Shown: positions 4,174-18,060 of the stretch, piece by piece
Layout of the letters: each line of letters begins with the position of its first letter
Position numbering within the stretch: position 1 is the stretch's first letter
Source of the DNA: an uncultured Hippea sp.
GTDB lineage: Bacteria > Campylobacterota_A > Desulfurellia > JAADFJ01
NCBI GenBank assembly: GCA_913009315.1
Contig: CAJVZA010000037.1
Location: 1 to 18,367 of the forward strand
DNA length: 18,367 nucleotides
Reading direction: 5' to 3'
Notes under the pieces: generated by a model
The model's input: only the letters and a program-made list of their open reading frames with translations
Told to the model about the DNA's origin: nothing
Database searches by the model: none
Program-made: the position numbers and the translations under genes

Positions 4174-4233
4174 AATAAAAGAAACCTAAGATAAACGATA
4201 AAATTAAATGATATATATGGAGCAATATATATA

Positions 4234-4286
4234 ATGAGACCACTGCACAATAAACAGATTCACAGCTTATTGTTCAGTGATCTCGT
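4234..4286. repeat. Dispersed palindrome, copy 1 (complete)
   Basis: The left arm ATGAGACCACTGCACAATAA (4234-4253) pairs with TTATTGTTCAGTGATCTCGT (4267-4286) over 20 positions with two mismatches and one G-T pair. The 13-nt loop is 4254-4266. The same arms and loop recur at 16792-16844, and the left half recurs at 13064-13093. The right arm ends 14 bp before the -35 box of the liv operon promoter, so the cruciform or hairpin sits immediately upstream of it. Confidence 0.85.
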
Positions 4287-4300
4287 AATCAATAGAATGC

Positions 4301-4328
4301 TTGACATTTGATAATTTTATTGTATAAA
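4301..4328 (+). promoter_or_regulatory. Strong predicted sigma70-type promoter of the liv operon
   Basis: Perfect -35 TTGACA (4301-4306), a 16-nt spacer, and -10 TATAAA (4323-4328). Initiation is expected near 4335, giving a leader of about 55 nt before the livG start. This is the best promoter match in the window. It lies between the palindromic repeat and the first gene of the eight-gene operon. Confidence 0.7.
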
Positions 4329-4389
4329 AAAGTAGAGTATTCTGATATACAAAAACTTATTTCACTATGTGGAATAGTTGGGGGTAATT

Positions 4390-5169
4390 TTGATAAAGCT
4401 TGAGGTGCATGACCTGTTTCTTTCTTTTGGCGGGATAGAAGCGTTAAAAGATATAAGTTTTTCGGTTAACAATAAAGAAATATTTTCAATTATAGGGCCC
4501 AATGGTGCCGGAAAAAGCAGTCTTTTGAACTGTATCAACGGCTTGTATCATCCTCAAAAAGGTAAAATTATATTTAAACAAACAGATATTACCAATTGGC
4601 CTGCAGACAAAATAGCTAAATTAGGTATAGGAAGAACATTTCAAAATCTTGAACTTTTTAAAGGTATGAGCGTTTTGGATAATCTTATGCTTGGCAGGCA
4701 TAATCATCTTAAATACGGTATTATGCCGTCTATTGTATGGATTGGAAGAGCATCAAAAGAAGAGATAACCTCAAGAGTTAAAGTTGAAAAGATCATTGAT
4801 CTGCTGGAGATTCAATCCGTAAGGAAAAAGACCGTAGGTACATTGCCCTACGGTCTGCAAAAACGGGTTGAACTCGGAAGAGCGCTGGCAGTTGATCCTG
4901 AAATTATGCTGCTTGATGAACCGATGGCCGGAATGAATGAAGAAGAACGGGAAGATATGGCACGGTTTATTCTTGATATCAATGAAGAAATGGACAAAAC
5001 TATTATATTAATTGAGCATGATATGTCTGTTGTTATGGATATATCCGACCGCATTATGGCGCTTGATTTCGGAGAGAAAATAGCAGACGGAACACCTGAG
5101 CAGATACAAAATAATTCTGATGTTCTCAACGCTTACATAGGAGGCAAAGAGAAGGGACAGGTGGCATGA
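4390..5169 (+). CDS. livG: HAAT-family ABC transporter ATP-binding protein LivG
   Basis: Cytoplasmic ATPase subunit of a branched-chain-amino-acid-type importer, 259 aa from this start. It has Walker A GPNGAGKSS (residues 36-44), a Q-loop in GIGRTFQNLELF, the signature LPYGLQKRVELGRAL (a LivG-style variant of LSGGQ), Walker B IMLLDEP followed by the D-loop MAGMN, and the H-loop histidine in IEHDM. I chose the TTG at 4390 because the GGGGG run at 4380-4384 gives a Shine-Dalgarno 5 nt upstream and the protein then begins MIKLEVHDL, like other LivG proteins. A TTG at 4378 would add four residues. Its stop overlaps the next gene's start (ATGA at 5166-5169), so translation is coupled to the acyl-CoA synthetase. 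Confidence 0.93.
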   Translation: MIKLEVHDLFLSFGGIEALKDISFSVNNKEIFSIIGPNGAGKSSLLNCINGLYHPQKGKIIFKQTDITNWPADKIAKLGIGRTFQNLELFKGMSVLDNLMLGRHNHLKYGIMPSIVWIGRASKEEITSRVKVEKIIDLLEIQSVRKKTVGTLPYGLQKRVELGRALAVDPEIMLLDEPMAGMNEEEREDMARFILDINEEMDKTIILIEHDMSVVMDISDRIMALDFGEKIADGTPEQIQNNSDVLNAYIGGKEKGQVA

Positions 5170-7052
5170 CATACAAAACCCTGCCCTCTTTGCTTATAAG
5201 AAATGCAGAAAAATGGCCTGATAAAATCGCCTTGCGTGAGAAGGAATTCGGGATATTTAACGATATTAGCTGGTTGGAGTATCTTGCCAATGTAAAAAAT
5301 TTTGCTCTCGGGCTTCTGTCAATAGGGTTTAAAAAAGATGATAAAGTTGCGATTATCGGAGATAATCGCCCTGAGTGGATTTATGCGGAAATGGCAAGTC
5401 AGTCCGTAGGAAGCGGCAGCGTCGGAATTTATCAGGATTCAATATTGAAGGAGATCAGCTATATTATTAACAACTCCGATTCAACGATTGTAGTAGCGGA
5501 AGATCAGGAACAGGTTGACAAGCTTTTAGATATGAAACATGAAATAAAAAATATAAAAAAAATAGTGTTTACGGATCCGAAAGGTATGAGACATTATAAT
5601 GATGATCTGCTCATCTATTTTCCCGATTTTTGTGAAGATGGAAAGAAATACGGGAATATACATAAAGGAATTTTTGAACAACATGTTAATACTCTGTCTG
5701 AAAATCATACGGCTCAGATTTGTACCACCTCAGGAACAACAGGGATACCGAAGTTAGCTATGCTTTCTCATAGAAATCTCATAACTATGGCAAAAAATCT
5801 TGGGATGGTGGATCCGAAATATCCTACAGATGAGTTTGTATCCTTTCTCCCCCTGTCATGGGTTGGTGAACAGATGATGGCTGTAGCTTCTGCGCTGTTT
5901 TTTGGATTTACCGTAAATTTTCCGGAAGAACCTGAAACCGCTCAGGACGATTTTAGAGAAATAGGCCCTAATTTTATGTTCTCTCCTCCGCGTGTCTGGG
6001 AAAATCTTGCAGCAAGTGTTCAGGTAAAAATTTCCAATGCAACATGGCTTAAAAGAAAAGTTTTTCATAGTCTTGTTCCCATCGGTTATAGATCGGCTGA
6101 GCTCAAATTCAAAAAGCTTAAAGCTTCTTTTTTTCTTAAAACAGCATATAGATTTGCCGATTTTCTGCTTTTTAGGCCTTTAAGAGACAGAATGGGTTTT
6201 TCGAATATAAGATCGGCTATGACAGGCGGTGCCGCATTGGGACCCGATACATTCAAATTCTTTCATGCGCTGGGAATAAATCTCAAACAGATTTACGGTC
6301 AAACCGAGATATCGGGAATCTCGTGTATTCATCGCAACGATAATATCGATCCGGATACTATGGGTGCGCCTCTTCCGGAAACAGAGATAAAAATTATAGA
6401 TGGAGAAATCTGTTCAAAAAGCCCTGCTCTTTTTCAGGGATATTATCAAAATGAAAAAGCGACATCCGATACTCTTATAGACGGGTGGCTGCACTCAGGT
6501 GATGCAGGTTATTTGACCGATGATGGTCAGATAGTTGTAATTGACCGGCTGAAAGATCTTATGAAGCTTGCAGATGAAACAAAATTTTCACCTCAATTTA
6601 TAGAGAATAAACTCAAATTCTCTCCATATATAAAGGAAGCGGTAGTTTTTGGTAACAACCGGGAATATATAGCTGTTTTGATCAACATAGACTACGAAAT
6701 TGTGGGTAATTGGGCAGAAAAGCAGCATCTTTCTTATACTACATATACTGATCTGGCAAGCAAAAAAGAGGTATACGGACTTATTGAAAAAGAGGTGAAA
6801 AATATTAACAACTCTTTAAAAAAGGAGATGAGAATTGCAAAATTTACGCTGCTTTATAAAGAACTTGATGCAGACGACGGAGAATTGACAAGAACAAAAA
6901 AGGTTAGAAGGCATTTCATCGGCGAACGTTACAGTACCATTATAAAAGCACTTTACAGCGATAAAGATACAGTACCTGTTGATGCTGAAATCAAATTCCA
7001 GGATGGTAAAACTGCAGCCGTTCATACAGAACTTTTTATAAAGAGTGTATAA
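5166..7052 (+). CDS. AMP-forming long-chain acyl-CoA synthetase
   Basis: ANL-superfamily acyl-CoA ligase of 628 aa, activating a carboxylic acid to acyl-AMP and then acyl-CoA. Core motifs are present: P-loop TSGTTGIPK (188-196), YGQTE (377-381), DGWLHSGD (439-446), hinge region IDRLKD (459-464), and a C-terminal lysine region in LTRTKKVRR. The length and the motif set resemble long-chain fatty acyl-CoA ligases (FAA1/FadD15 type) rather than the short acetyl-CoA type. There is no signal peptide; these enzymes are usually cytosolic or membrane-associated. It lies between livG and livH with a 4-base start/stop overlap, so it belongs to the transporter operon. Coupling of uptake to CoA activation of the same or a related acid is an inference. 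The substrate cannot be read from the sequence. Confidence 0.92.
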   Translation: MTYKTLPSLLIRNAEKWPDKIALREKEFGIFNDISWLEYLANVKNFALGLLSIGFKKDDKVAIIGDNRPEWIYAEMASQSVGSGSVGIYQDSILKEISYIINNSDSTIVVAEDQEQVDKLLDMKHEIKNIKKIVFTDPKGMRHYNDDLLIYFPDFCEDGKKYGNIHKGIFEQHVNTLSENHTAQICTTSGTTGIPKLAMLSHRNLITMAKNLGMVDPKYPTDEFVSFLPLSWVGEQMMAVASALFFGFTVNFPEEPETAQDDFREIGPNFMFSPPRVWENLAASVQVKISNATWLKRKVFHSLVPIGYRSAELKFKKLKASFFLKTAYRFADFLLFRPLRDRMGFSNIRSAMTGGAALGPDTFKFFHALGINLKQIYGQTEISGISCIHRNDNIDPDTMGAPLPETEIKIIDGEICSKSPALFQGYYQNEKATSDTLIDGWLHSGDAGYLTDDGQIVVIDRLKDLMKLADETKFSPQFIENKLKFSPYIKEAVVFGNNREYIAVLINIDYEIVGNWAEKQHLSYTTYTDLASKKEVYGLIEKEVKNINNSLKKEMRIAKFTLLYKELDADDGELTRTKKVRRHFIGERYSTIIKALYSDKDTVPVDAEIKFQDGKTAAVHTELFIKSV

Positions 7053-7067
7053 CAAAGGAGAAAGTGA

Positions 7068-7952
7068 GTGAACTATTTTATTCAGCTCATTGTTAGTGGA
7101 GTTGTGCTGGGCAGCATATATGCACTTATTGCTTTAGGCTTTGTATTAATATACAAGGCGACAAGAGTACTGAATTTTGCACAAGGTGAACTTCTTATGG
7201 CTGGAGCCTATATAGCATTTGCTCTTACAGTTCAGCTGCATATCCCGTTTTGGAGTGCTTTTTTTATTGCGATGCTTTTGTGTGCGCTTCTCGGCCTTAT
7301 TATCGAAATTCTGATTTTGAAACCGCTTATAGGAGAACCGATTATCTCAATTGTAATGATAACAATAGGTTTATCGATAGTGCTGAAGGCAATTGTCGAG
7401 ATGATCTGGGGCACGGAAACGAGAGTATATCCGGCGATATTTTCGACCCAGCCAATAACTTTGGGGGCTATAAGTGTATCAAAAAGCTCTCTGTTTTCTT
7501 TGGGAGCAGCCATAACGTTGTTTATTATATTCCATCTCTTTTTCAAATTTTCATCAACAGGCATAGCTATGAGAGCAGTAGCGGATGATCAGCAGGCGGC
7601 GCAATCGATGGGAATCAACATAAAAAAGATATTTGCAATAAGCTGGATGGTGGCGGCTCTGGTTGCCGGTATAGGAGGTATCCTGATAGGCAATATGAAC
7701 GGAATTAATGTTTCTTTGGGGATGTTCGGTCTGAAGGTTTTTCCTGCAGTTATACTTGGCGGACTTGACAGTGTTCCGGGTGCAATTATAGGAGGTATAA
7801 CAATTGGAGTACTGGAAAGTCTATCAGGCGGATATTTGGATCCTCTTGTGGGCGGAGGAGTAAAAATGGTAGCCCCATTTGCTATTTTGCTTGTAATTCT
7901 TTTGATTAAACCGTACGGACTGTTCGGAACCGAAGAGATAGAGAAGGTATAA
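7068..7952 (+). CDS. livH: HAAT ABC transporter permease LivH
   Basis: Inner-membrane permease of 294 aa with about eight hydrophobic segments and the LivH signature near the N-terminus (GVVLGSIYALIALGFVLIYK, then FAQGELLMAGAYIA). The cytoplasmic coupling region GIAMRAVADDQQAAQSMGI contacts the ATPase in this family. The C-terminal GGLDSVPGAIIGG is also typical. The start is the GTG at 7068, supported by AGGAG at 7056-7060. It lies 15 bp after the acyl-CoA synthetase and 1 bp before livM. It forms the heterodimeric channel with LivM. Confidence 0.95.
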   Translation: MNYFIQLIVSGVVLGSIYALIALGFVLIYKATRVLNFAQGELLMAGAYIAFALTVQLHIPFWSAFFIAMLLCALLGLIIEILILKPLIGEPIISIVMITIGLSIVLKAIVEMIWGTETRVYPAIFSTQPITLGAISVSKSSLFSLGAAITLFIIFHLFFKFSSTGIAMRAVADDQQAAQSMGINIKKIFAISWMVAALVAGIGGILIGNMNGINVSLGMFGLKVFPAVILGGLDSVPGAIIGGITIGVLESLSGGYLDPLVGGGVKMVAPFAILLVILLIKPYGLFGTEEIEKV

Positions 7953-7953
7953 A

Positions 7954-9003
7954 ATGGCTATAAAATGTGGAATATTTAAAACATCATACAGATCCGATAT
8001 GGCAATGTGGCAAACAAAAAACAGTCGATTCTGGATGGCTCTGTTCTTTATAGGCCTGATAGTGTTTCCATTTTTTGTAAGTAAATATTTTCTTTATATG
8101 GCAAACATTATTGCAATCGGAGTGATTGCTGCAGTTGGCCTTAATATCTTAACCGGCTTTGCCGGACAGATTTCTTTGGGACATGGTGCATTTATAGGCG
8201 TAGGGGCATATTTTGCCGGATATCTTACAAGTCAGTTCAATATAAATTTTATACCGGCTTTTATTGCAGGAGGCCTGGTAACAGCAGTTGTCGGAATGTT
8301 TTTCGGTCTTCCGTCGCTGAGGCTTAAAGGGTTTTATCTTGCCATAGCAACAATGGCTGCGCAGTTTATACTCGCATTCGTGTTTATACACCTGCGTTCT
8401 GTCACAGGCGGAAGTCAGGGAATGATAGTGTCGCCTCCTGAAATTGCCGGATTTTCGTTTGATTCCGATTTCAGATATTACTTTTTATCAATCGGAACTG
8501 CAATAGTTATGACTTTGGCGGCAAAAAATCTGATCAGAGGCAAATTTGGAAGAGCATTTATGGCAATACGGGATAACTATATAGCGGCAAAAACTATGGG
8601 CGTAAATATATTTCTTTATAAAATCATTGCGTTTGGCATATCATCATTTTACGCCGGAATAGCAGGGGCACTTTGGGCTCACTATATTCAAATCATTACA
8701 CCCGAACATTTTACATTTTCAGTTTCGATAGAATATCTTGCAATAATTATAATCGGCGGACTTGGAAGTCTTCTCGGTACTGTTTTTGGAACAATCTTTA
8801 TTATGGTTCTGCCTGAATTTTTGAGATTTATAAACGGAATAGTCTCTTTGCATTATCCTATGCTTGTCAATATGTTTGATGCCATAAGAGAAGGTTCTTT
8901 CGGTCTGGCTATAATCGGTTTTCTTATATTCGAACCTGATGGTCTTGCTGCACGCTGGAAAACCATAAAAAATTACTGGAAATTGTGGCCATATTCATAT
9001 TAA
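7954..9003 (+). CDS. livM: HAAT ABC transporter permease LivM
   Basis: Inner-membrane permease of 349 aa. The N-terminal stretch before the first helix (about 30 residues) is hydrophilic. The LivM signature follows (GLNILTGFAGQISLGHGAFIGVGAY). The coupling loop is GRAFMAIRDNYIAAKTMGVN, and IIIGGLGSLLGTVFG matches the conserved C-terminal region. It starts 1 bp after livH stops. A second ATG at residue 16 (MAMWQTKN) is a possible shorter start. Together with LivH it forms the membrane channel driven by LivG and LivF. Confidence 0.94.
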   Translation: MAIKCGIFKTSYRSDMAMWQTKNSRFWMALFFIGLIVFPFFVSKYFLYMANIIAIGVIAAVGLNILTGFAGQISLGHGAFIGVGAYFAGYLTSQFNINFIPAFIAGGLVTAVVGMFFGLPSLRLKGFYLAIATMAAQFILAFVFIHLRSVTGGSQGMIVSPPEIAGFSFDSDFRYYFLSIGTAIVMTLAAKNLIRGKFGRAFMAIRDNYIAAKTMGVNIFLYKIIAFGISSFYAGIAGALWAHYIQIITPEHFTFSVSIEYLAIIIIGGLGSLLGTVFGTIFIMVLPEFLRFINGIVSLHYPMLVNMFDAIREGSFGLAIIGFLIFEPDGLAARWKTIKNYWKLWPYSY

Positions 9004-9084
9004 GGGTAACTTTATCAATCCATGAACGATCATCTTGGCCTCGAATCGGGAGCACCCGAAATTAATAGAGATATCCTTAAAAAT

Positions 9085-9094
9085 AAAGGAGGTG
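9085..9094 (+). promoter_or_regulatory. Orphan perfect Shine-Dalgarno sequence
   Basis: AAAGGAGGTG, continuing with A at 9095, is complementary to the usual bacterial 16S rRNA 3' end over about eleven bases, yet no ATG, GTG or TTG follows at normal spacing. It lies 66 nt upstream of the binding-protein ATG, between livM and that gene. It may be a ribosome standby or pausing site, or a leftover from a rearrangement. Confidence 0.45.
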
Positions 9095-9132
9095 AACAGC
9101 TTACACAGAAAGGGGAAGGAGTGAGAATTAAA

Positions 9133-9176
9133 AAAAAGATTTTATCGAAGGGGGTAAAAATGAAAAAGATTTTATC
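9133..9176 (+). repeat. 14-nt direct repeat at the binding-protein start
   Basis: AAAAAGATTTTATC occurs at 9133-9146 and 9163-9176, 30 bp (ten codons) apart and in the same frame. Each copy follows a purine-rich ribosome-binding-like stretch (GGGGAAGGA before GTG at 9121; AAGGGGG before ATG at 9160). This looks like a duplicated translation-initiation region. Confidence 0.6.
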
Positions 9177-10317
9177 AGTTAGTCTGTTTTTAGCATCGAT
9201 ATTGTTTGTTTTTGCATTAAACGGCAATGCAGCTTCAATACCGATCGGAGGTATTTGGGATATGACGGGACCTACAGGTGATGTGGGTGCGCCTTATGCA
9301 ACTGCGCAGAGAAATTATATCAGTTATGTAAACTCTCATGGAGGAATTAACGGGAAAAAGATTGCTCTGTTCGGCGAGGATTACGCGTATAAAATTCCTG
9401 CTGCTGTGGCATTATACAAAAGACTGACAGAAAAACATGTTTTGGCAATTCTTGGATGGGGTACCGGTGATACTGAGGCACTTAGCCGCTTTATCGCAAG
9501 AGATAAAATTCCTTATATCTCGGCATCATATTCGGAAGGATTATCAAATGTAAAAAAAGCTCCGTACAATTTTCCGGGAGCCGTTACCTACTCTGATCAG
9601 GCGAGAATTGCGCTGGCATTTATAAAAAGTCACTATAAAGGCAGCGGCAATCCTAAGGTGGCATTACTTTACAATGACAAGGGATTTGGAAGATCTCCCA
9701 TAAATGATGCAAAGAAATACGCAAAAAAAATAGGTGTAAATATTGTAGATGATGAGATTGTTCCTTTGAGAGCCCTGGATGTCACAAGTCAGCTTTTAAG
9801 CATGAAAAAGCATGGAGCGCAATATGCGCTTATTCAGGAAACCATAATGGCCACATCCACAATTCTTAAAGACGCAAAAAAACTTGGAATAAAAACAAAA
9901 TTTTTTGCGTTAAACTGGGCAGCCAACGAAAAACTTCTCGCACTTGCAGGTTCCGCAGCCGAAGGTTTGTACTGGACATCTCCGTTCTCTCTGTGGACAG
10001 ACACAAATCTGAAAGGAATACGTTTTGTTCACAAGGTAAGCAAGCTGTACAACGGAAACAAGGCTCAATCGGTAAATTATATTCAGGGATTTATTGCCGC
10101 TTATACGCTCGTTCAAGCGTTAAAAAAAGCGGATAAAGAGGGAAGGTTAAACGGTCCTGGAATAAAGTATGCACTTGAGCATAACAAATTTCCCAATGGC
10201 GGATTGTCCGCTCCCGCGTCTTATAGTCCAAAGCTTCATAAATTTGCAACTAAACTTAGAATATATCAAGTTCAAAACGGTAAATTTGTTCCTGTAACAG
10301 GTTATATTTCTCCATAA
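9160..10317 (+). CDS. Periplasmic substrate-binding protein of the HAAT transporter
   Basis: Type I periplasmic binding protein (LivK-like, 385 aa). A Sec signal peptide covers residues 1-25 (MKK, a hydrophobic core, then NGNAA-S); there is no lipobox cysteine, so the mature protein should be soluble. The mature part opens with IPIGGIWDMTGPTGDVGAPY, the usual first strand and ligand loop, and has FGEDY and the GWGTGDTEAL region. The frame is open from 9022, but the ATG at 9160 has a GGGGG-rich ribosome-binding site at 9148-9153 and starts a normal signal peptide. A GTG at 9121 would add 13 basic residues. The substrate is uncertain: the family binds branched-chain amino acids, aromatic acids, amides and urea. 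The neighbouring CoA ligases favour a carboxylic acid, by inference only. Confidence 0.92.
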   Translation: MKKILSVSLFLASILFVFALNGNAASIPIGGIWDMTGPTGDVGAPYATAQRNYISYVNSHGGINGKKIALFGEDYAYKIPAAVALYKRLTEKHVLAILGWGTGDTEALSRFIARDKIPYISASYSEGLSNVKKAPYNFPGAVTYSDQARIALAFIKSHYKGSGNPKVALLYNDKGFGRSPINDAKKYAKKIGVNIVDDEIVPLRALDVTSQLLSMKKHGAQYALIQETIMATSTILKDAKKLGIKTKFFALNWAANEKLLALAGSAAEGLYWTSPFSLWTDTNLKGIRFVHKVSKLYNGNKAQSVNYIQGFIAAYTLVQALKKADKEGRLNGPGIKYALEHNKFPNGGLSAPASYSPKLHKFATKLRIYQVQNGKFVPVTGYISP

Positions 10318-10347
10318 TTAGAATCTGTCAATCGATATAATAAGTTC

Positions 10348-10382
10348 AGCGGACAGCCGGTCGGTTTCCACGGCTGTCCGCT
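10348..10382 (+). promoter_or_regulatory. GC-rich intra-operon hairpin after the binding-protein gene
   Basis: A perfect 12-bp stem, AGCGGACAGCCG (10348-10359) with CGGCTGTCCGCT (10371-10382), around an 11-nt loop. It is much more GC-rich than its surroundings. The stem is followed by A-rich sequence rather than a T-run, so it is not a standard terminator. It sits in the only larger gap before livF. The likely role, by analogy with malE-malF-type intergenic hairpins, is to protect the upstream mRNA 3' end so that the binding protein is made in excess over the ATPase. Confidence 0.75.
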
Positions 10383-10406
10383 CTAAAAAATAATACGGGT
10401 GAGGAT

Positions 10407-11198
10407 GTGCTAAAGATTAAAAATATTGAAGTTGTATATGATGATGTAATTTTAGTCCTGAGAGGGATGTCCATTGAGGCAAAAAAAGGATCCATAACTG
10501 TTTTGCTCGGCTCAAACGGGGCAGGCAAAAGCACGACACTTAAAGCAATATCGGGTCTTCTTAAATCCGAAGAAGGCAAGATCACAGATGGTGATATACT
10601 CTTTGAAAACAGGTCTCTAAAAAATAAAAATCCGGAGGAAATTGTCAGTGCCGGCATATTCCAGGTTATGGAAGGAAGAAGAATTTTTGGAACTCTGACA
10701 ACGGAAGAAAATCTCAAGGTGGCCGGATACTGCCGCAAATACGGCAAAAAAATATTAAAAGGCAAAATCGAAAAGATATATGAATATTTTCCGCATTTAA
10801 AAGAAAGGCGAGAGATAAGAGCCGGATATCTGTCGGGTGGAGAGCAGCAAATGCTCGCAATAGGAAGAGCTCTGATATCGGAGCCTAAAATGATTTTGCT
10901 TGATGAACCCTCACTTGGTCTTGCTCCGCTTTTAGTTAAAGAACTCTTTAAAATCATAGAACGCATAAATCGAATTGATAAAATTACAATTTTGCTGGTC
11001 GAACAAAACGCCGATATTGCGCTTTCGATTGGCAGCTATGGGTATATTATGGAGAACGGAAAGGTTGTGCTTGAGGGCAGCTGCGCTAAATTACGGGAAA
11101 ACGAGGATGTTAAAGAATTTTATCTGGGAATATCGGCAGAAGGGAAGAAAAGTTTTAAAAATGTAAAACATTACAGGAGAAGAAAAAGATGGCTTTGA
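10407..11198 (+). CDS. livF: HAAT-family ABC transporter ATP-binding protein LivF
   Basis: Second ATPase subunit, 263 aa. It has Walker A GSNGAGKST (35-43), signature LSGGEQQ (142-148), Walker B MILLDEP (162-168) with SLGLAP, and an H-loop region in LLVEQN, where the usual His is Gln as is normal for LivF. It is about 25 residues longer than stand-alone LivF, with a basic C-terminal tail at 245-263 (KSFKNVKHYRRRKRWL). I recall similar tails in LivF proteins encoded next to PaaK-like ligases; this is from memory. The start is the GTG at 10407, with a GGTGAGGA-type ribosome-binding region just upstream. The 3' end overlaps the ligase start by 10 bp. Confidence 0.93.
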   Translation: MLKIKNIEVVYDDVILVLRGMSIEAKKGSITVLLGSNGAGKSTTLKAISGLLKSEEGKITDGDILFENRSLKNKNPEEIVSAGIFQVMEGRRIFGTLTTEENLKVAGYCRKYGKKILKGKIEKIYEYFPHLKERREIRAGYLSGGEQQMLAIGRALISEPKMILLDEPSLGLAPLLVKELFKIIERINRIDKITILLVEQNADIALSIGSYGYIMENGKVVLEGSCAKLRENEDVKEFYLGISAEGKKSFKNVKHYRRRKRWL

Positions 11199-12376
11199 GC
11201 CAAACTAAGAATAAAAAGTTCAAATTTATCATAAAGCATGCCTCGCAATTCAGCAAATATTATTCAAATCTTTTTGAAAAATATTCAATTAATTCATCAG
11301 AGATCGAATTGGATAAAATTGAGAAAATACCGATTACTCATAAATCGGAAATGCCTGAACTTCATAAAGATAACCTGCCTTTCGGTAATCTTCTGACAAC
11401 TGAAAAAACCGAACTAAAACATATCTATCTTTCGCCGGGTCCAATTTATGATGCAGAAGGAAGAGAAAAAGATTACTGGGGAATTGAGTATGTATTGAAA
11501 AAATTGGATTTCGGCAGCGGAGACATAGTTCTCAACAGTTTCAGTTATCATTTAACTCCTGCCGGTCTTTTTTTTGATAATGCGTTGGTTGATGCAGGCT
11601 GTACGGTTTTTCCTGCAGGCGTCGGAAACAGCAGTGTTGCTGTGCAGGCAATTTATGATATACCATGCAACGCATTTATCGGAACACCCTCATATCTTTA
11701 CAGCTTGAAGAAAAAATATTACGAGTTTTTTAAAAAACCGTTTCCTATAACAAAGGCAATTGTAGCCGGAGAGCCTGTATCCGAGACAATCAGAAATGAC
11801 TTTAATAAAACAAAGATGGATGTCAGAGGGGTATATGCAACCGCCGAAGCGGGATTGATAGGCTATGAATGCAAAAATTTTCCAGGTTTTCATATAGCTG
11901 ACAGAGTTTTTGTGGAAATTGTTGATGCAAACGGCAAAAAGATTCCGGCAGGAAAATCCGGAGAGGTTGTAATAACACTGCTTTCAAATTATACATATCC
12001 TCTTATACGATACGGCACCGGAGATATAGCCAGATTCATAACATCCGACTGTCACCTGGAAAATGATTTATATCTGCTTTCAAGCATTGAGGGCAGGGTA
12101 GATCAGACGGTAAAAATTAGAGGAATGTTCGTATATCCTTCGGCCGTTAAGGAACTTTTATCAGATTTTAAACAAATAAAAAGAGCGAAACTTGTTGTTG
12201 AGAGAAAACATGAAAGAGATTATGTCATATTATTTCTGGAAATAGAATCGGATATGGATTATAATAAGCTTGTCTTGAACGCAAAAAGAATAATGAAAAT
12301 CAAGATTGACTCTATAAAAAAGGCAAAGATTGATCGCGACGATGATAGATTGATCGAAGACAGAAGAAGATTCTAA
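11189..12376 (+). CDS. PaaK-like AMP-binding enzyme (phenylacetate-CoA ligase family)
   Basis: ANL-superfamily protein of 395 aa, related to phenylacetate-CoA ligase (COG1541) but shorter than PaaK (about 430-440 aa). Recognisable are YATAE (216-220, the YGxTE position), GEVVITLL, PLIRYGTGD (271-279), GR at 302-303, and KIRGMFVYP (309-317), a strong PaaK-family C-terminal-domain signature. The usual glycine-rich ATP loop (SSGTTGxPK) is replaced by LSPGPIYDAEG (81-91), so whether it forms acyl-AMP normally is open. It overlaps livF and is followed 16 bp later by the CBS/ACT gene. Its role could be CoA activation of an imported aromatic or other acid. Confidence 0.85.
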   Translation: MALSQTKNKKFKFIIKHASQFSKYYSNLFEKYSINSSEIELDKIEKIPITHKSEMPELHKDNLPFGNLLTTEKTELKHIYLSPGPIYDAEGREKDYWGIEYVLKKLDFGSGDIVLNSFSYHLTPAGLFFDNALVDAGCTVFPAGVGNSSVAVQAIYDIPCNAFIGTPSYLYSLKKKYYEFFKKPFPITKAIVAGEPVSETIRNDFNKTKMDVRGVYATAEAGLIGYECKNFPGFHIADRVFVEIVDANGKKIPAGKSGEVVITLLSNYTYPLIRYGTGDIARFITSDCHLENDLYLLSSIEGRVDQTVKIRGMFVYPSAVKELLSDFKQIKRAKLVVERKHERDYVILFLEIESDMDYNKLVLNAKRIMKIKIDSIKKAKIDRDDDRLIEDRRRF

Positions 12377-12392
12377 TAGTTGGAGGTAGACA

Positions 12393-13064
12393 ATGTATGT
12401 TAAGAACTGGATGAAAACAGAGGTAATAACTTCGGAGCCGAACGACACATTCTATAAAGTTGCAAAAATCATGAAAGAGAAGAAGATTAGGCATATGCCT
12501 GTTGTGGATAAGCAAAAAATAGTAGGCATGATAAGCGACAGAGATGTGAGATTGGCTTCACCGTCTAACGCAACCAGTCTATCAAAAGGAGAAATCGGGT
12601 ATCTTTTGGAAAAGATAACTGCGGCTGAGATTATGAACCGCCAGCTTTTTACCATCGAACCGGATGCAACCATAGAATATGCCTCGGAGGTGATGAAAGA
12701 ACACAGGATAGGATCACTTCCTGTTGTTGATGATGAGAACAGAATAGTGGGTATAATCTCAACAATAGATATTTTGGAGGCATTCTTCGATGTCATGGGA
12801 GGATCGGCCGAAAGCTACAGATTGACAATACAAACTTCAGATAAAATAGGTGTATTGGCCGAAATTACCAAAATAATAGCCGATCACGAGGGATTCATAA
12901 TAAGCATTGTTACACCATATTACGGCACAAATAGAACAAGAAGGCAGGTAGTTGTCAGAATTCAGGTATCGGATATAAAAGATATTATAGCTGATTTAGA
13001 AAGGCATGATAAAAAGGTCGTCACTATGCATAAATGCAACCTTGACGGATGGCAGCGAACATAA
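12393..13064 (+). CDS. Tandem CBS domains plus C-terminal ACT domain (AcuB-like)
   Basis: Cytoplasmic regulatory protein of 223 aa. CBS1 covers about residues 1-57 (VKNWMKTEVITSEP, then RHMPVVDKQKIVGMISDRDV). CBS2 covers about 76-132 (AAEIMNRQLFTIEPDAT, then RIGSLPVVDDENRIVGIIST). An ACT-like domain covers about 142-210 (RLTIQTSDKIGVLAEITKIIADH). CBS pairs bind adenine nucleotides and ACT domains bind amino acids, so it may sense energy charge together with a transported or related ligand. The start has GGAGGT at 12381-12386. It is the last gene of the operon, 16 bp after the PaaK-like gene. Its stop codon abuts the half palindrome: the last A of TAA is the first base of the repeat arm. Confidence 0.88.
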   Translation: MYVKNWMKTEVITSEPNDTFYKVAKIMKEKKIRHMPVVDKQKIVGMISDRDVRLASPSNATSLSKGEIGYLLEKITAAEIMNRQLFTIEPDATIEYASEVMKEHRIGSLPVVDDENRIVGIISTIDILEAFFDVMGGSAESYRLTIQTSDKIGVLAEITKIIADHEGFIISIVTPYYGTNRTRRQVVVRIQVSDIKDIIADLERHDKKVVTMHKCNLDGWQRT

Positions 13065-13093
13065 TGAGATCACTGCACAATAAACATATTCAC
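13064..13093. repeat. Dispersed palindrome, half copy (copy 2)
   Basis: ATGAGATCACTGCACAATAA (13064-13083) plus loop ACATATTCAC matches the left arm and loop of the complete palindromes at 4234 and 16792. The right arm is missing and is replaced by GG and a T6 run. The arm begins on the last base of the CBS/ACT stop codon. Confidence 0.8.
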
Positions 13094-13111
13094 GGTTTTT
13101 TATGAGGTTTT

Positions 13112-13300
13112 CCGCAGGGCAACTCTGTTAATTCCAAGCGTTCCAAATTGAGAGTTCGAATCAGTCTCATCAAGTGCAAATCGCAGATAGCAACTGGACT
13201 GTTGCCAAAATTTGCAATGCAGAGGAGACGTATTCGGGACTCAAGATGATCGTTTACGGATCAATGGCGTCCGGCAGGGCAATACCTCTGTTTGATAATT
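13112..13300. repeat. Imperfect direct repeats flanking module copy 2
   Basis: CCGCAGGGCAA-CTCTGTT-AATT (13112-13133) recurs as CCGGCAGGGCAA, TAC, CTCTGTT, TGAT, AATT (13271-13300), with three small insertions. The two copies bracket the repeat module at 13147-13262. They could be the ends of a small nonautonomous element or an older target duplication; I did not find them around the other copies. Confidence 0.45.
13147..13262. repeat. Dispersed structured module, copy 2
   Basis: This 116-bp segment aligns end to end with 16956-17071, both starting with ATTGAGAGTT and ending with GGAT plus one base. Shared blocks include AATGCAGAG, ATTCGGG, CTCAAG and ATCGTT. It contains an outer stem TGCAAAT (13175-13181) with ATTTGCA (13210-13216) and an inner hairpin GCAAC/GTTGC. 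It lies in the convergent gap between the CBS/ACT and UbiA genes. The frame across it is not conserved between copies, so it is probably noncoding. Confidence 0.7.
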
Positions 13301-13322
13301 GTAGCCGCTGTCAGCAGAAGAA

Positions 13323-14201
13323 TCAGAGCAGTTCTATCGCAACTGCAATAAGCACAATAGTACCGACAAAACTATTTATATTGAAAAAGGCAGCATAAAT
13401 TTTTCCTTTCTTCATTGATGCCGCCAAAATCTGTTCATAAATTAAAAGAGATCCTATAATTGCAGTAGCAATGTAATAGATAACTCCAAATCCGCTTAAA
13501 ATGCCTGCCGTCACAAGAAATATAAGGCTTATAAAATGAAACAGTTTCGATAACAGAATAGCGCCGTTTTTGCCATACGCCGATGAGGCTGAATAGAGAT
13601 GATGCTTAACATCAAATTCATGGTCAAGCATACTGTAGATCATATCAAAACCGGCAACCCAGAAACTTACCGAAAGTCCAAACATAATGATCGGAAGTGA
13701 AAAATGAGGAGAAATGGCCAAATATGCACCGATCGGTGCCAATCCATCAATAATTCCCAAAAGCAGGTGGCATATTATGCTGAATCGTTTCGTAAATGGG
13801 TATATTATAAAAAGTAACACAACTATAAAAGAAAGTTTGAATACGAGCATATTAATCAGATAAGCAGAAACTTCAAATATTATAAACATGCTTAATGAGA
13901 AAAACCATGCGGATGATTCTTTTATTTGTCCTGAAGGAATTTCACGCTCGCTTGTTCTTGGATTTTGTTTATCGATATTTGCATCTATGATCCTGTTGAG
14001 TGCCATCGCAAGCGAACGAGCTGAAATCATCGCAACAGAAATCAAAATAAAGATTTCGAAATTAGGTAATCCGTTTGCAGCTATCAGCATTCCTACGAAT
14101 GCAAACGGAAGTGCAAAGACCGAATGTGAAAACTTAATCATCCTTAAAAGAGTATTAAATGTTTTTGTAATTTTTTTGATATTATTTGTTAGAATAATCA
14201 T
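13323..14201 (-). CDS. UbiA-family prenyltransferase (probably MqnP/4-hydroxybenzoate type)
   Basis: Integral membrane prenyltransferase of 292 aa with about eight hydrophobic segments. The first Asp-rich motif is N69RIIDANID (N69, D73, D77), followed by PRTSEREIP. The second is YSMLDHEFD (Y189, D193, D197), which binds Mg-prenyl diphosphate. The N-terminus (MIKFSHSVFALPFAFVGML) is characteristic of the 4-hydroxybenzoate polyprenyltransferase/MqnP group rather than MenA or heme O synthase. It would attach the polyprenyl tail to an aromatic acid in quinone synthesis; with an apparently anaerobic host, the futalosine menaquinone route is a plausible setting. The ATG overlaps the pgsA stop (ATGA), so it is the last gene of a four-gene operon. 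No rho-independent terminator is evident downstream. Confidence 0.88.
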   Translation of the reverse strand: MIILTNNIKKITKTFNTLLRMIKFSHSVFALPFAFVGMLIAANGLPNFEIFILISVAMISARSLAMALNRIIDANIDKQNPRTSEREIPSGQIKESSAWFFSLSMFIIFEVSAYLINMLVFKLSFIVVLLFIIYPFTKRFSIICHLLLGIIDGLAPIGAYLAISPHFSLPIIMFGLSVSFWVAGFDMIYSMLDHEFDVKHHLYSASSAYGKNGAILLSKLFHFISLIFLVTAGILSGFGVIYYIATAIIGSLLIYEQILAASMKKGKIYAAFFNINSFVGTIVLIAVAIELL

Positions 14202-14731
14202 ATTTTATTTATTACCTTAAAGTAGTTTATTAGATAGATTATAACAGAAAAAACTGCCAGAATCACTGCAATATAAAGAACGATGGTGCCGAGTTCTCTT
14301 TTCCCCATCAACAAAATTATAAGTGCCGCAAATTGAAATCCCGTCTTAAATTTTCCCCACCAATTGGCAGATATTACTACTCCGGAATCTGCCGCTATTG
14401 CCCTGATGCCGGTAGCCAACAGTTCTCTTGCTACGATAATTATAACAATCCAGCCTGCAATCATATTAATATCCGTCATAGCAATCATGACAGATACAAC
14501 CATTAGTTTATCAGCTACCGGATCAAGCAGTTTCCCGATATTTGTAACCTGGTTTGTCCGTCTTGCAATCTGTCCATCCAGGATATCCGTAAAAATCGCC
14601 AAAACCAGCACAATAATAGTAAGCGTGAAAAACGATTGCTTGTTCTGATATATAAAAATTACAGCCACCGGAATTAGCGCTATTCTCAAAAGCGTTAAGA
14701 TATTAGGAATCGTTACAATTCGGTTTTTCAT
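14198..14731 (-). CDS. pgsA: CDP-diacylglycerol-glycerol-3-phosphate 3-phosphatidyltransferase
   Basis: Inner-membrane enzyme of 177 aa making phosphatidylglycerophosphate, the committed step to phosphatidylglycerol. The CDP-alcohol phosphotransferase motif is complete: D49-x2-D52-G53-x2-A56-R57-x8-G66-x3-D70-x3-D74. The protein has about five to six hydrophobic helices, and its length is normal for PgsA. The N-terminal TIPNILTLLRIALIP is a standard PgsA opening. It lies 3 bp after the transglycosylase gene and overlaps the prenyltransferase start by 4 bp. No strong ribosome-binding site is visible, so translation is probably coupled. Confidence 0.95.
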   Translation of the reverse strand: MKNRIVTIPNILTLLRIALIPVAVIFIYQNKQSFFTLTIIVLVLAIFTDILDGQIARRTNQVTNIGKLLDPVADKLMVVSVMIAMTDINMIAGWIVIIIVARELLATGIRAIAADSGVVISANWWGKFKTGFQFAALIILLMGKRELGTIVLYIAVILAVFSVIIYLINYFKVINKI

Positions 14732-14734
14732 AGT

Positions 14735-15268
14735 TTATGTACCATAATTTTTGAAATAACTTTCCCATTTAATAACCGATTTGAGATATTCTATAGCTTT
14801 CGGCTCAATTATTTTATTTTTTTTGATGCTGTTTTCTCCGCCATAATAAGATGCTATCACCAGCGATTTTTTGTGAAACCGTCTCATGAGAAATTTAATA
14901 TAACGTATTGAAGCTTCGAGATTCAATTCGGGGTCATATAAGCTGTTTTTATCGATTCCAAAACGTTTTGCCGTTTCAGGTTTAACCTGCATCAATCCTA
15001 TTGCACCGGCATTAGAAAGAGCATTAGGATTGAAATCGGATTCAACCTTTGCAATAGCCATCAGCAGATTAGGATCTATTTGATTGTTTCTGGCTTTTAA
15101 AATAATCAAATTTTTAATTCTATTTTTATCCGTTATTCTCGGCAAAACAGGCTTATCAAGATTGCTTATGTAAATCGCCCCTTCATGATCATAAAGAGAC
15201 AGCTTCCCGGCCGATGCGTAACCATAAGATAGATTAAGCATAATAATTAAGATAGCGATTTTATACAT
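14735..15268 (-). CDS. Small SLT-type lytic transglycosylase
   Basis: Exported protein of 177 aa. A signal peptide covers about residues 1-20 (hydrophobic core, then SYGYASA-G). A short strand-rich segment follows (LSLYDHEGAIYISN). The SLT lysozyme-like domain (about 55-170) has catalytic Glu76 in AIAKVESDFNP, the family motif GAIGLMQVKPETA (88-100) and SYYGGEN (140-146) in place of the usual AYNAGE. It is predicted to cleave peptidoglycan strands to 1,6-anhydromuropeptides in the periplasm. It overlaps the 3' end of the phosphohexomutase gene by 22 bp with no clear Shine-Dalgarno, suggesting coupling. Confidence 0.88.
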   Translation of the reverse strand: MYKIAILIIMLNLSYGYASAGKLSLYDHEGAIYISNLDKPVLPRITDKNRIKNLIILKARNNQIDPNLLMAIAKVESDFNPNALSNAGAIGLMQVKPETAKRFGIDKNSLYDPELNLEASIRYIKFLMRRFHKKSLVIASYYGGENSIKKNKIIEPKAIEYLKSVIKWESYFKNYGT

Positions 15269-16665
15269 TGAGTCACTATGTTGTTGATCCTAAATTTTAT
15301 ATTTTCTAAGTTTTCTTTGGTATCGGCTTCAAATCGAGATACTAAGACAGGCTGGGTGTTGCTTGCTCTGACAAGCGCCCATCCGCTATCAAAAACTATC
15401 CTTACACCGTCTATCGTAACAATTTCTTTAACATCACTATAGTTTTTGTCATTTACAGCCGCTTGAACAAGCTCCGGAATCTTGTGCTTTATGGTATCGG
15501 GACAATTGGTTCTAATTTCAGGAGTAGCAACGGTTTTGGGCATATTTTCTATCAATTCCGATAATTTGAATTGCCTGTTATTAATTTTCTTTTTTACGAA
15601 GATTTCAGCTAACCTTAAGCCTGCATAAATAGCATCATCATATCCATAATATCTATCCTTGAAAAACAGATGGCCGCTCATTTCTCCGGCTAATATTGCA
15701 CCGGTCTCTTTCATTTTAGCCTTTATCAACGAATGACCTGTTTTCCACATAATAATTTTTCCGCCGGCCTTTCGAACGCCTTCATACAGAACGCTGCTGC
15801 TTTTTACTTCGCTGATTATCACAGGTGGTTCCTTTTGTTTCCATTCATTGATAATATCAAGCGCAAAAATAAGTAAAAGCTTGTCTCCCCATATGATGGT
15901 TCCTCTTTCGTCCACAACTCCAATTCTATCAGCATCTCCATCATATGCTATTCCAAAATCCGATCCCGTCTCTTTAACTTTCTTTCTCAGATCCTTCAAA
16001 TTTACCTCTACCGTAGGATCAGGATGATGATTGGGGAAATTACCGTCAGGCTTGCTGTAAAGATCAATTAGCTCAAATCCCATGTTTCTAAAAAGTTCCG
16101 GTGCAATTATACCGGCAGTCCCGTTTCCTGAATCTATAACAATCTTTACAGGCCGCTCAAGCCGTTTCAGCATCTCTGAGATTCCGGAAAAACCGCTTTG
16201 AATCATTTCAATATAACTGCCGGAAATGTAAGTTTTTGCATAGGTACCGATTTTATTTTCCTTTATAGTTGTTTCTTCCATCTTTTTCTCAATCTCTTTG
16301 ATAGCCTCTCCATAAATCGTGTCATTGCCGATACATAATTTTATACCATTATATTCCGGAGGATTGTGAGAACCTGTTATCATCATCGCTCCGGTAACGG
16401 CAAGCTTGAATGTTGCATAATATAGAATAGGTGTCGGGACAAGTCCAATGTCAGTTACATTAACTCCGCTTGCAAGCAGTCCTTCTACTGCCGCCCTACT
16501 CAAGCTTTCTGAGCTTAATCTTGCATCATGTCCAATGGCCACAAAAGCGTCCTCCGTTCTCTGCTTCAGCATCCTTCCGAATATGTATGCAATCTTTTGA
16601 GCCGTACTTTTTTTTAGCGTTTTCCCGACAATGCCCCGTATATCGTACTGTCTAAAAATTGACAT
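15247..16665 (-). CDS. Phosphomannomutase/phosphoglucomutase (alpha-D-phosphohexomutase)
   Basis: Cytosolic enzyme of 472 aa interconverting hexose 1- and 6-phosphates for nucleotide-sugar and surface-polysaccharide synthesis. Visible are the phosphoserine loop GSHNPPEYNG (active Ser99), the Mg loop DGDADR (242-247), the sugar loop GEMSGH (327-332) and the phosphate loop RASNTQP (433-439). The N-terminal FRQYDIRG is the AlgC/ManB-type opening. The frame is open upstream to 16821, but the start is fixed at 16665 by AGGAGGC (plus-strand 16671-16677) 5 nt away; the upstream extension crosses the promoter and a palindromic repeat. It is the first gene of the operon with the transglycosylase, pgsA and the prenyltransferase. 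Sugar specificity (mannose versus glucose) cannot be decided. Confidence 0.94.
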   Translation of the reverse strand: MSIFRQYDIRGIVGKTLKKSTAQKIAYIFGRMLKQRTEDAFVAIGHDARLSSESLSRAAVEGLLASGVNVTDIGLVPTPILYYATFKLAVTGAMMITGSHNPPEYNGIKLCIGNDTIYGEAIKEIEKKMEETTIKENKIGTYAKTYISGSYIEMIQSGFSGISEMLKRLERPVKIVIDSGNGTAGIIAPELFRNMGFELIDLYSKPDGNFPNHHPDPTVEVNLKDLRKKVKETGSDFGIAYDGDADRIGVVDERGTIIWGDKLLLIFALDIINEWKQKEPPVIISEVKSSSVLYEGVRKAGGKIIMWKTGHSLIKAKMKETGAILAGEMSGHLFFKDRYYGYDDAIYAGLRLAEIFVKKKINNRQFKLSELIENMPKTVATPEIRTNCPDTIKHKIPELVQAAVNDKNYSDVKEIVTIDGVRIVFDSGWALVRASNTQPVLVSRFEADTKENLENIKFRINNIVTQCIKSLS

Positions 16666-16695
16666 AAACAGCCTCCTAATGCAAATTACATAAAG

Positions 16696-16707
16696 CCGCA
16701 GCTGCGG
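16696..16707. promoter_or_regulatory. Perfect 12-bp palindrome in the mutase leader
   Basis: CCGCAGCTGCGG is fully self-complementary. It lies between the predicted promoter and the ribosome-binding site of the phosphohexomutase gene. It could be an operator or a leader hairpin; no evidence distinguishes these. Confidence 0.35.
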
Positions 16708-16732
16708 TATTCTGTGACCATCTGAGTTATAA

Positions 16733-16760
16733 ATAATAACATACTTTTGCGGTGGTTCAA
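16733..16760 (-). promoter_or_regulatory. Predicted promoter of the mutase-prenyltransferase operon
   Basis: On the minus strand, TTGAAC (16760-16755), a 16-nt spacer and TATTAT (16738-16733). Initiation would be near 16726, giving a 60-nt leader that contains the 12-bp palindrome. Four of six and five of six consensus matches respectively. Confidence 0.45.
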
Positions 16761-16791
16761 ATAGAATAGTACCTGATATCTTTTTTGGGTC

Positions 16792-16844
16792 ATGAAACCA
16801 CTGCACAATAAACGTATTCACTGCTTATTGTGCAGTGATCTCAT
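16792..16844. repeat. Dispersed palindrome, copy 3 (complete)
   Basis: ATGAAACCACTGCACAATAA (16792-16811) pairs with TTATTGTGCAGTGATCTCAT (16825-16844), 18 of 20 positions, around the 13-nt loop ACGTATTCACTGC. It is nearly the same as 4234-4286, and its loop is conserved as well as the stem. It lies between the divergent promoters of the mutase operon and the diguanylate cyclase gene. Confidence 0.87.
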
Positions 16845-16929
16845 AAAATTGTCGTTAAAGAAAAGCATGCTTATTGAGAATACCGGCTGTGACGATTGGT
16901 ATTTACAGCGGATTAAATATAAGATATAC

Positions 16930-16957
16930 TTGATAATTAATAGCTATAACTTAATAT
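16930..16957 (+). promoter_or_regulatory. Weak possible promoter of the diguanylate cyclase gene
   Basis: TTGATA (16930-16935), a 16-nt spacer and TAATAT (16952-16957). If real, transcription would start just inside the repeat module, which would then form the 5' leader of the diguanylate cyclase mRNA. Confidence 0.3.
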
Positions 16958-17071
16958 TGAGAGTTAAATCTGCCGGTAAAGCGTAAATTGCAGGTAATAG
17001 TTGAGCTATTGCCGGGATTTACAATGCAGAGCAGGCTAATTCGGGGGGCTCAAGGTAATCGTTCATGGATT
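16956..17071. repeat. Dispersed structured module, copy 3
   Basis: This 116-bp segment is homologous to 13147-13262. It forms an outer stem GTAAAT (16983-16988) with ATTTAC (17017-17022) and an inner stem GGTAATAG (16994-17001) with CTATTGCC, including one G-T pair. Relative to copy 2, the outer stem changes C-G to T-A and the inner stem changes C-G to T-A at aligned positions, keeping pairing. It ends about 10 bp before the ribosome-binding site of the diguanylate cyclase gene. Confidence 0.7.
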
Positions 17072-17091
17072 CCTTAATATAGAGGTAACAT

Positions 17092-18060
17092 GTGTATCAT
17101 AAAGATAAAAGCGACTTTTATATCAATAAACAAAGCGAACAGATGAATAAGAGTGATATGAATGCATCTGTAAAAAGAATTAGTTCTAAAGTATATAAAT
17201 ATGCTGAAGATAGAAATAAAAGACTTGTACCTACGCTTTATAAAATACTTTTTAAAAAAATGGCACTAAAACTCGGCTTCACGAATGAAGACCTTGAGAT
17301 GTTTGATTCGGGACTGTTTATTGAAAAGCAGCAAAAAACTCTTGAAACCAAAAGATCCAAGGACTTGTCGAAAGTTCACGGCAGCATCTCCAACAAGGTC
17401 AAAAAGCTGTTATTGGCGACTGTCTCATACAGCAGCAAAATTAAAAACAGCAAAGATCTGAAGGATCTGTCAAAAGATACGCTTGGATATCTGTCCAAGT
17501 TGAATAAAACAAAAAAAGGCCTCGAAGCCGACGAAAATATTTTAAGCAATATAGCAGACATGATATTCAAAGATCCTCTTACCGGCTTACTTAACAGACG
17601 TTTTATGAATATGATTCTAAAAAGAGAATTTTACAGACTTAAACGATATGGTACCGAACTGTCCATTATTATTGCAGATATTGATAAGTTTAAAGATGTA
17701 AACGATACATACGGTCATATGGTCGGCGATAGAGTGCTGTCAAGTATTGCGGAATTGCTCATTAATTCATCGCGCACATCTGATACAATCATCAGATACG
17801 GAGGTGAAGAGATAATCATAATATGTCCTTCAACAAAGATAGAATGTGCTGTGCTGCTTGCAGAGAAGCTTCGATATCTTCTTTCAAAACTTAAGTTCAA
17901 GGTCAAATCAAAACTGTTTTCCGTTACTTTATCATTTGGAGTAGCTGAATGCAGAGCGGATGACGGAGAAGACGAACTGCCAATCAAGGCACTCAAAAGA
18001 ATGGATGACGCATTATATCAATCAAAAAGAAATGGCCGTAACAAAGTTTCTGCGCTCTGA
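17092..18060 (+). CDS. GGDEF diguanylate cyclase with helical N-terminal domain
   Basis: Cytoplasmic protein of 322 aa predicted to make cyclic di-GMP from two GTP. The C-terminal GGDEF domain (about 152-322) has DPLTGLLNRR (161-170), the metal aspartates in DIDKFKDVNDTYGH (D196, D198), the active-site loop RYGGEEI (235-241) and a product-inhibition I-site R228-x-x-D231 at the correct five-residue distance. The fifth active-site position is Ile instead of Phe, while the catalytic GGEE is intact. Residues 1-150 are charged and Lys-rich, probably helical, without transmembrane segments or a recognised sensor domain. The GTG start at 17092 has AGAGG at 17081-17085; an ATG at 17143 is an alternative. 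The gene stands alone between the mutase promoter region and a terminator. Confidence 0.9.
   Translation: MYHKDKSDFYINKQSEQMNKSDMNASVKRISSKVYKYAEDRNKRLVPTLYKILFKKMALKLGFTNEDLEMFDSGLFIEKQQKTLETKRSKDLSKVHGSISNKVKKLLLATVSYSSKIKNSKDLKDLSKDTLGYLSKLNKTKKGLEADENILSNIADMIFKDPLTGLLNRRFMNMILKREFYRLKRYGTELSIIIADIDKFKDVNDTYGHMVGDRVLSSIAELLINSSRTSDTIIRYGGEEIIIICPSTKIECAVLLAEKLRYLLSKLKFKVKSKLFSVTLSFGVAECRADDGEDELPIKALKRMDDALYQSKRNGRNKVSAL

Follow-up and report, generated by a model that had tools for sequence, protein, structure and literature searches.

The 53-bp palindrome that recurs in the window (the whole stretch of DNA analysed, 18,367 nucleotides, contig 37 of its genome) is, with a probability of about 0.88, part of an IS5-type MITE family that carries GAGACC ends, designated here element A, the short forms being internally deleted remnants. 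Element A is a fresh example of an already-known kind of mobile DNA. Less ordinary are its high density, the recurring 51–57-bp derivatives, the occupation of one site by a long form in one sister species and a short form in the other, the nesting of a second fold-back repeat (element B) and the co-varying arms. The analysis identifies a dispersed repeat that is abundant in an uncultured genus of Campylobacterota and links it to an IS5-type transposase. With the sister genomes, one can follow site by site how a bacterial MITE is gained, nested and internally deleted.

The genome of the window (G000, 1.74 Mb in 96 contigs) was compared with those of a sister species (G001, 91–94% identical to the window DNA) and a more distant congener (G002, 73–82%). 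Element lengths, empty sites, placement and flanking 3-mers were compiled over 191 kb in G000 and 483 kb in G001.

Copies in the window and in other genomes

All three repeat copies reported in the original prediction are present. The first is a 51-bp short form of element A (4235–4285, + strand) with TAA on both sides (4232–4234 and 4286–4288). The same place is occupied in G001; the copy was not found in G002, where the upstream region is unalignable. The promoter-like TTGACA region just downstream of the copy aligns in G002, which lacks the element, and is therefore older than the element or independent of it. The second 51-bp form (16793–16843, + strand) lies between TCA (16790–16792) and TAA (16844–16846), one of which must have mutated if the duplication was TNA; in G001 this site is empty and reads TTTTTTGG-ATAAAGTTG. 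The third copy (13065–13116, + strand) is what remains of a long form, namely its left 52 bp; the right end is lost. The TAA preceding this copy (13062–13064) doubles as the stop codon of a CBS-domain gene.

The extent of 53 bp originally assigned to the palindrome holds when the neighbouring A and T are counted; the element itself is 51 bp. The supposed left half at 13064–13093 does have the left end, which begins at 13065, yet it is not a simple half: the 265-bp form contributes its first 52 bp, and element B comes directly after them. The window palindromes have arms of 19–20 nt, with 17–18 positions paired, and a 13-nt loop. Arms of 19 nt with 17 matches were found twice in the window and never in five dinucleotide shuffles (best 16). 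The listed GTG start of a phosphomannomutase-like gene (16660–16821) falls within the repeat; its true start is likely MSIFRQYDIRG near 16660.

The genome-wide arm search shows that the repeat is not limited to the window copies: the arm 13-mer CACTGCACAATAA, with no more than one mismatch, occurs at 131 sites in G000, and its reversed control at one. The 18-mer GAGACCACTGCACAATAA (up to two mismatches) detects 142 termini in G000 (none with the control), 122 in G001 and 3 in G002; across 58 further genomes it gave 3 matches in total, each with two mismatches. Element A is abundant in G001, rare in G002 and essentially absent elsewhere. Scans of IMG/VR by pattern and by transposase produced no match, nor did a search of a plasmid collection with the 265-bp element DNA. 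Both element A ends, about 243 bp apart, were observed on a 5.2-kb contig binned as Chlorobiota (JAADIB010000398.1), which is either mis-binned or the product of inter-phylum transfer.

Four long copies in G000 are 98–100% identical, which points to recent spread. A contig start lies less than 200 bp away from 12 of the 96 listed arm sites in G000 (about one expected by chance). This excess indicates that the assembly breaks inside the element, as with near-identical repeats, and element A accounts for at least some contig breaks in these assemblies.

Long forms, short forms and nested element B

Two-ended copies of element A are 51, 53, 54 or 57 bp, about 158 bp, 259–277 bp or about 400–460 bp long. 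The complete element is the 265-bp form (class of about 263–267 bp), in which two ~31-bp terminal inverted repeats, TGAGACCACTGCACARTAARCAGATTCACAG, surround a pair of internal palindromes whose tips resemble TAACCGGTTA. In the long copies these tips are strongly conserved between subfamilies. The features defining a MITE (absence of coding capacity, inverted termini, many copies, length of 50–1000 bp) were found in element A. The 51-bp window forms retain both ends, and the middle is almost entirely gone. The conservation of the loop was correctly noticed in the original prediction, where it was taken as a sign of a specific protein or a self-copying element. A different explanation is given here: the loop represents the inner portion of one of the ~31-bp terminal inverted repeats, which remains once the middle of the 265-bp element is deleted.

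Internal deletion in place as the origin of the short palindromes is best supported by sites where one sister species has a long form and the other a short one. At C2:18960 the G000 copy is a 54-bp form and the G001 copy a long form enclosing element B; at window position 13065, a long-type copy containing element B in G000 corresponds to a complete 53-bp palindrome in G001. The change at both sites would have run from long to short. The 51-bp form could be produced by a deletion fusing ...CACAGCTT to CTTATTGTG... at their common GCTT, a junction read from the sequence.

Alternatively, the 51–57-bp palindromes could be a transposon jumping as such instead of remnants of the 265-bp form. In its favour, several short copies occupy precise or near-precise empty sites (window 16793, C51:10255, C1:41988), and nine short copies of G000 have one common length. 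This alternative is nonetheless unlikely, considering the two loci that are long in one sister species and short in the other. In addition, the junctions vary (51, 53, 54 and 57 bp) in a manner that fits microhomology deletions of the long form, and no perfectly identical pair of short copies was noted at different sites. A related proposal, slightly more doubtful, is that the 51-bp form, with two putative transposase-binding ends and 13 bp between them, is itself mobile, with hairpin-templated repair, extruded-cruciform recognition or another process at the DNA level keeping its arms matched. If true, it would be among the smallest known transposable units. Derivation of the short forms by deletion, not by their own transposition, appears the better account.

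The long element has a very stable predicted fold (−114.5 kcal/mol, z −13). In 14 long copies, double-sided pair-keeping changes affect 21 of 91 pairs compared with 10.3 in shuffles, although these counts are inflated by relatedness among the copies; sliding the partners abolishes the signal. Such stability and co-variation could suggest a structured RNA gene retained for its transcript. This is very improbable: the two strands fold about equally well, neither consistently better, so that the pattern fits matched DNA palindromes and not a one-stranded RNA; moreover, Rfam gave no match on the window and element loci, and the insertion sites are polymorphic. Co-variation could plausibly be a result of subfamily diversification, in which both ends suit a transposase, together with a further process matching the internal palindromes.

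Element B is a fold-back repeat of about 160 bp with ends GGGCAACTCTATTAAT; G000 has 52 matches to it, G001 has 49 and G002 has none. Of 21 B copies that retain both ends, at least 12 are located inside element A sequence (counted from flanks), and several of the 400–460-bp forms of element A carry B. In the window, the copy nested in element A occupies 13117–13277 (+ strand); its right end is degenerate, and it is 85% identical to the B consensus (query 1–150, matched at 13117–13265). An older incomplete copy (16956–17071, + strand; 75% identical) was aligned with G001 and is common to both genomes. An end fragment at about 8997–9040 (− strand), recognized by its inverted match to 17051–17097, lies between ABC permease and binding-protein genes. 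The listed start of the binding-protein frame (9022–9160) crosses this fragment, and the later signal peptide MKKILSV is likely the true start. A partner of element B was searched for and not found.

Insertion sites and the candidate transposase

Empty orthologous sites, named in the original prediction as support for mobility, were found between the sister species. Five G000 elements (C43:9261, C51:10255, C2:11144, C5:14123 and window 16793) have no counterpart in G001, where the flanks are kept, and the clearest of these sites hold a single target copy. The element at C43:9261 is 265 bp long (9261–9525), and the corresponding empty site in G001 reads ACAATAATGC. Conversely, the G001 elements C73:7450 and C94:9983 are absent from G000.

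Target duplication was assessed for 65 elements with both flanks, using 1000 random flank re-pairings as the null. Flanking 3-mers are identical in 34 of them, always as TNA (18 TAA, 14 TTA, one TGA and one TCA); re-pairing gave a mean of 19.4 and at most 29. The flanking 3-mers of about half the elements differ, which is expected for old copies, though not clean. The flanking A and T extend the preferred target to ATWAT. Element A thus shows two further features of a MITE, target duplication and empty orthologous sites.

Insertion points were related to reading frames of at least 120 aa after the element and one target copy had been deleted by script, with random positions as the control. Only 4 of 28 points in G000 and 3 of 29 in G001 fall within such a frame, compared with 67% and 84% of random positions, which bears out the intergenic bias. 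The copy at C43:9261 interrupts an 891-codon frame whose G001 counterpart is continuous at this position; from the sequence, read by eye, we take the encoded protein to resemble a formate dehydrogenase alpha subunit.

A 291-codon frame on G000 contig C15, detected by a DDE_Tnp_1 search, is a remnant of an IS5-type transposase comprising DUF772 and the start of DDE_Tnp_1. DUF772 scores above the cut-off and DDE_Tnp_1 just below it (20.7 of 23 bits). The NCBIfam equivalog scores (IS1182, 123 of 270 bits; IS5_4, 113 of 140) are below their cut-offs, as would be expected of a truncated protein. About 140 bp 5′ of the gene lies TGAGACCACTGCACAGTAAAC, in which 21 bp are identical to a MITE end; the other end of the remnant is lost. 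Of the transposase flanked by the same arm that was sought, one matching 21-bp end beside a truncated gene was recovered. An intact autonomous partner was found in none of the three genomes G000, G001 and G002, a gap that could reflect the draft state of the assemblies. A search for paired ends 0.6–2.5 kb apart enclosing a transposase returned ordinary genes only.

The closest relative of the C15 protein in the plasmid collection is intact and annotated as IS5 family (Aliarcobacter cibarius plasmid, 56% identity over 281 residues). This IS, which has a 12-bp matching end, starts with GAGACCACTGCA 128 bp before the gene and has TGCAGTGGGCTC at the far end. Ends of the GAGACC..TGCA class were found with the C15 remnant and the A. 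cibarius IS; beyond about 21 bp, IS and MITE ends are unlike. Published IS5-family ends include GAGACCATTGCA (ISPg1, ISPg9) and GAGACCTTTGCA (ISNme1), and such elements have their own MITEs (PMC4596501). The C15-type IS5 transposase is probably the mover of element A.

The other DDE_Tnp_1 and DUF772 genes of G000 were considered as partners and rejected, element A ends not being in the expected arrangement. Contigs C1 and C10 each end in a near-identical terminal part of another DUF772 transposase gene, which represents a separate multi-copy IS without element A ends.

In the proposed mechanism, the outer ~20 bp of element A would be recognized in trans by an IS5-family transposase, which would excise or copy the element, with insertion at ATWAT-like sites and duplication of the central TNA. 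Insertions would persist mainly between genes. Element B is often nested inside element A. Internal deletions would then join the ends at short microhomologies (e.g., GCTT), giving 51–57-bp palindromes whose loop is the inner portion of one terminal repeat.

If the copies were REP/BIME-like palindromes mobilized by a RAYT (a Y1 tyrosine transposase), they would likewise be short, intergenic, palindromic and numerous, and Y1_Tnp genes do occur in G000 (six) and G001 (one). These genes, however, are not flanked by an element A end at up to three mismatches (one 3-mismatch end is more than 1 kb away), and two inverted ends, TNA duplication and a 265-bp complete form are features of DDE transposons. 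TNA duplication at clean empty sites largely refutes this possibility, which has very little probability left. The earlier suggestion of a nonautonomous element outside the REP/RAYT families agrees with the many intergenic copies, the empty orthologous sites, the TNA duplications and the IS5-family remnant with the same end.

Equally remote is a host-conserved DNA site under selection (nucleoid, replication or regulatory), including the nucleoid or replication-associated site once proposed: the sequence is conserved and intergenic, with one copy beside a promoter, but positions vary between sister species of 91–94% identity with precise empty sites, the two arms of the shared copy at 4235 have diverged independently in G000 and G001, and the promoter-like sequence beside it is also present in G002 without the element.

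Comparison with known systems

Eukaryotic MITEs of the PIF/Harbinger type (Tourist-like) are similar to element A in their TWA target, IS5-related transposase and short palindromic elements. REP/BIME sequences with RAYT resemble element A as many short intergenic palindromes; element A differs in the lack of an adjacent Y1 transposase, in its DDE-type ends and in target duplication.

RUP of Streptococcus pneumoniae (IS630-Spn1) is also a MITE whose presumed mover is an IS that acts in trans and shares its ends, and its preference for insertion near other mobile elements is a further likeness. Unlike element A, it belongs to the IS630 class, with a TA target and 9-bp ends (PMC2229807).

The nearest counterparts are IS5-family MITEs with GAGACC ends: ATR of Neisseria meningitidis (with ISNme1) and BrickBuilt and MITEPgRS of Porphyromonas gingivalis (PMC4596501). 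As in element A, GAGAC is followed after a few bases by TGCA, and these elements are non-coding and intergenic, with an IS5-family mover proposed. Element A is far commoner, with 142 termini in 1.74 Mb compared with 19 copies of BrickBuilt or ATR. It is further distinguished from all three by a clear TNA duplication, two internal palindromes, 51–57-bp derivatives retaining two ends, and a nested second MITE.
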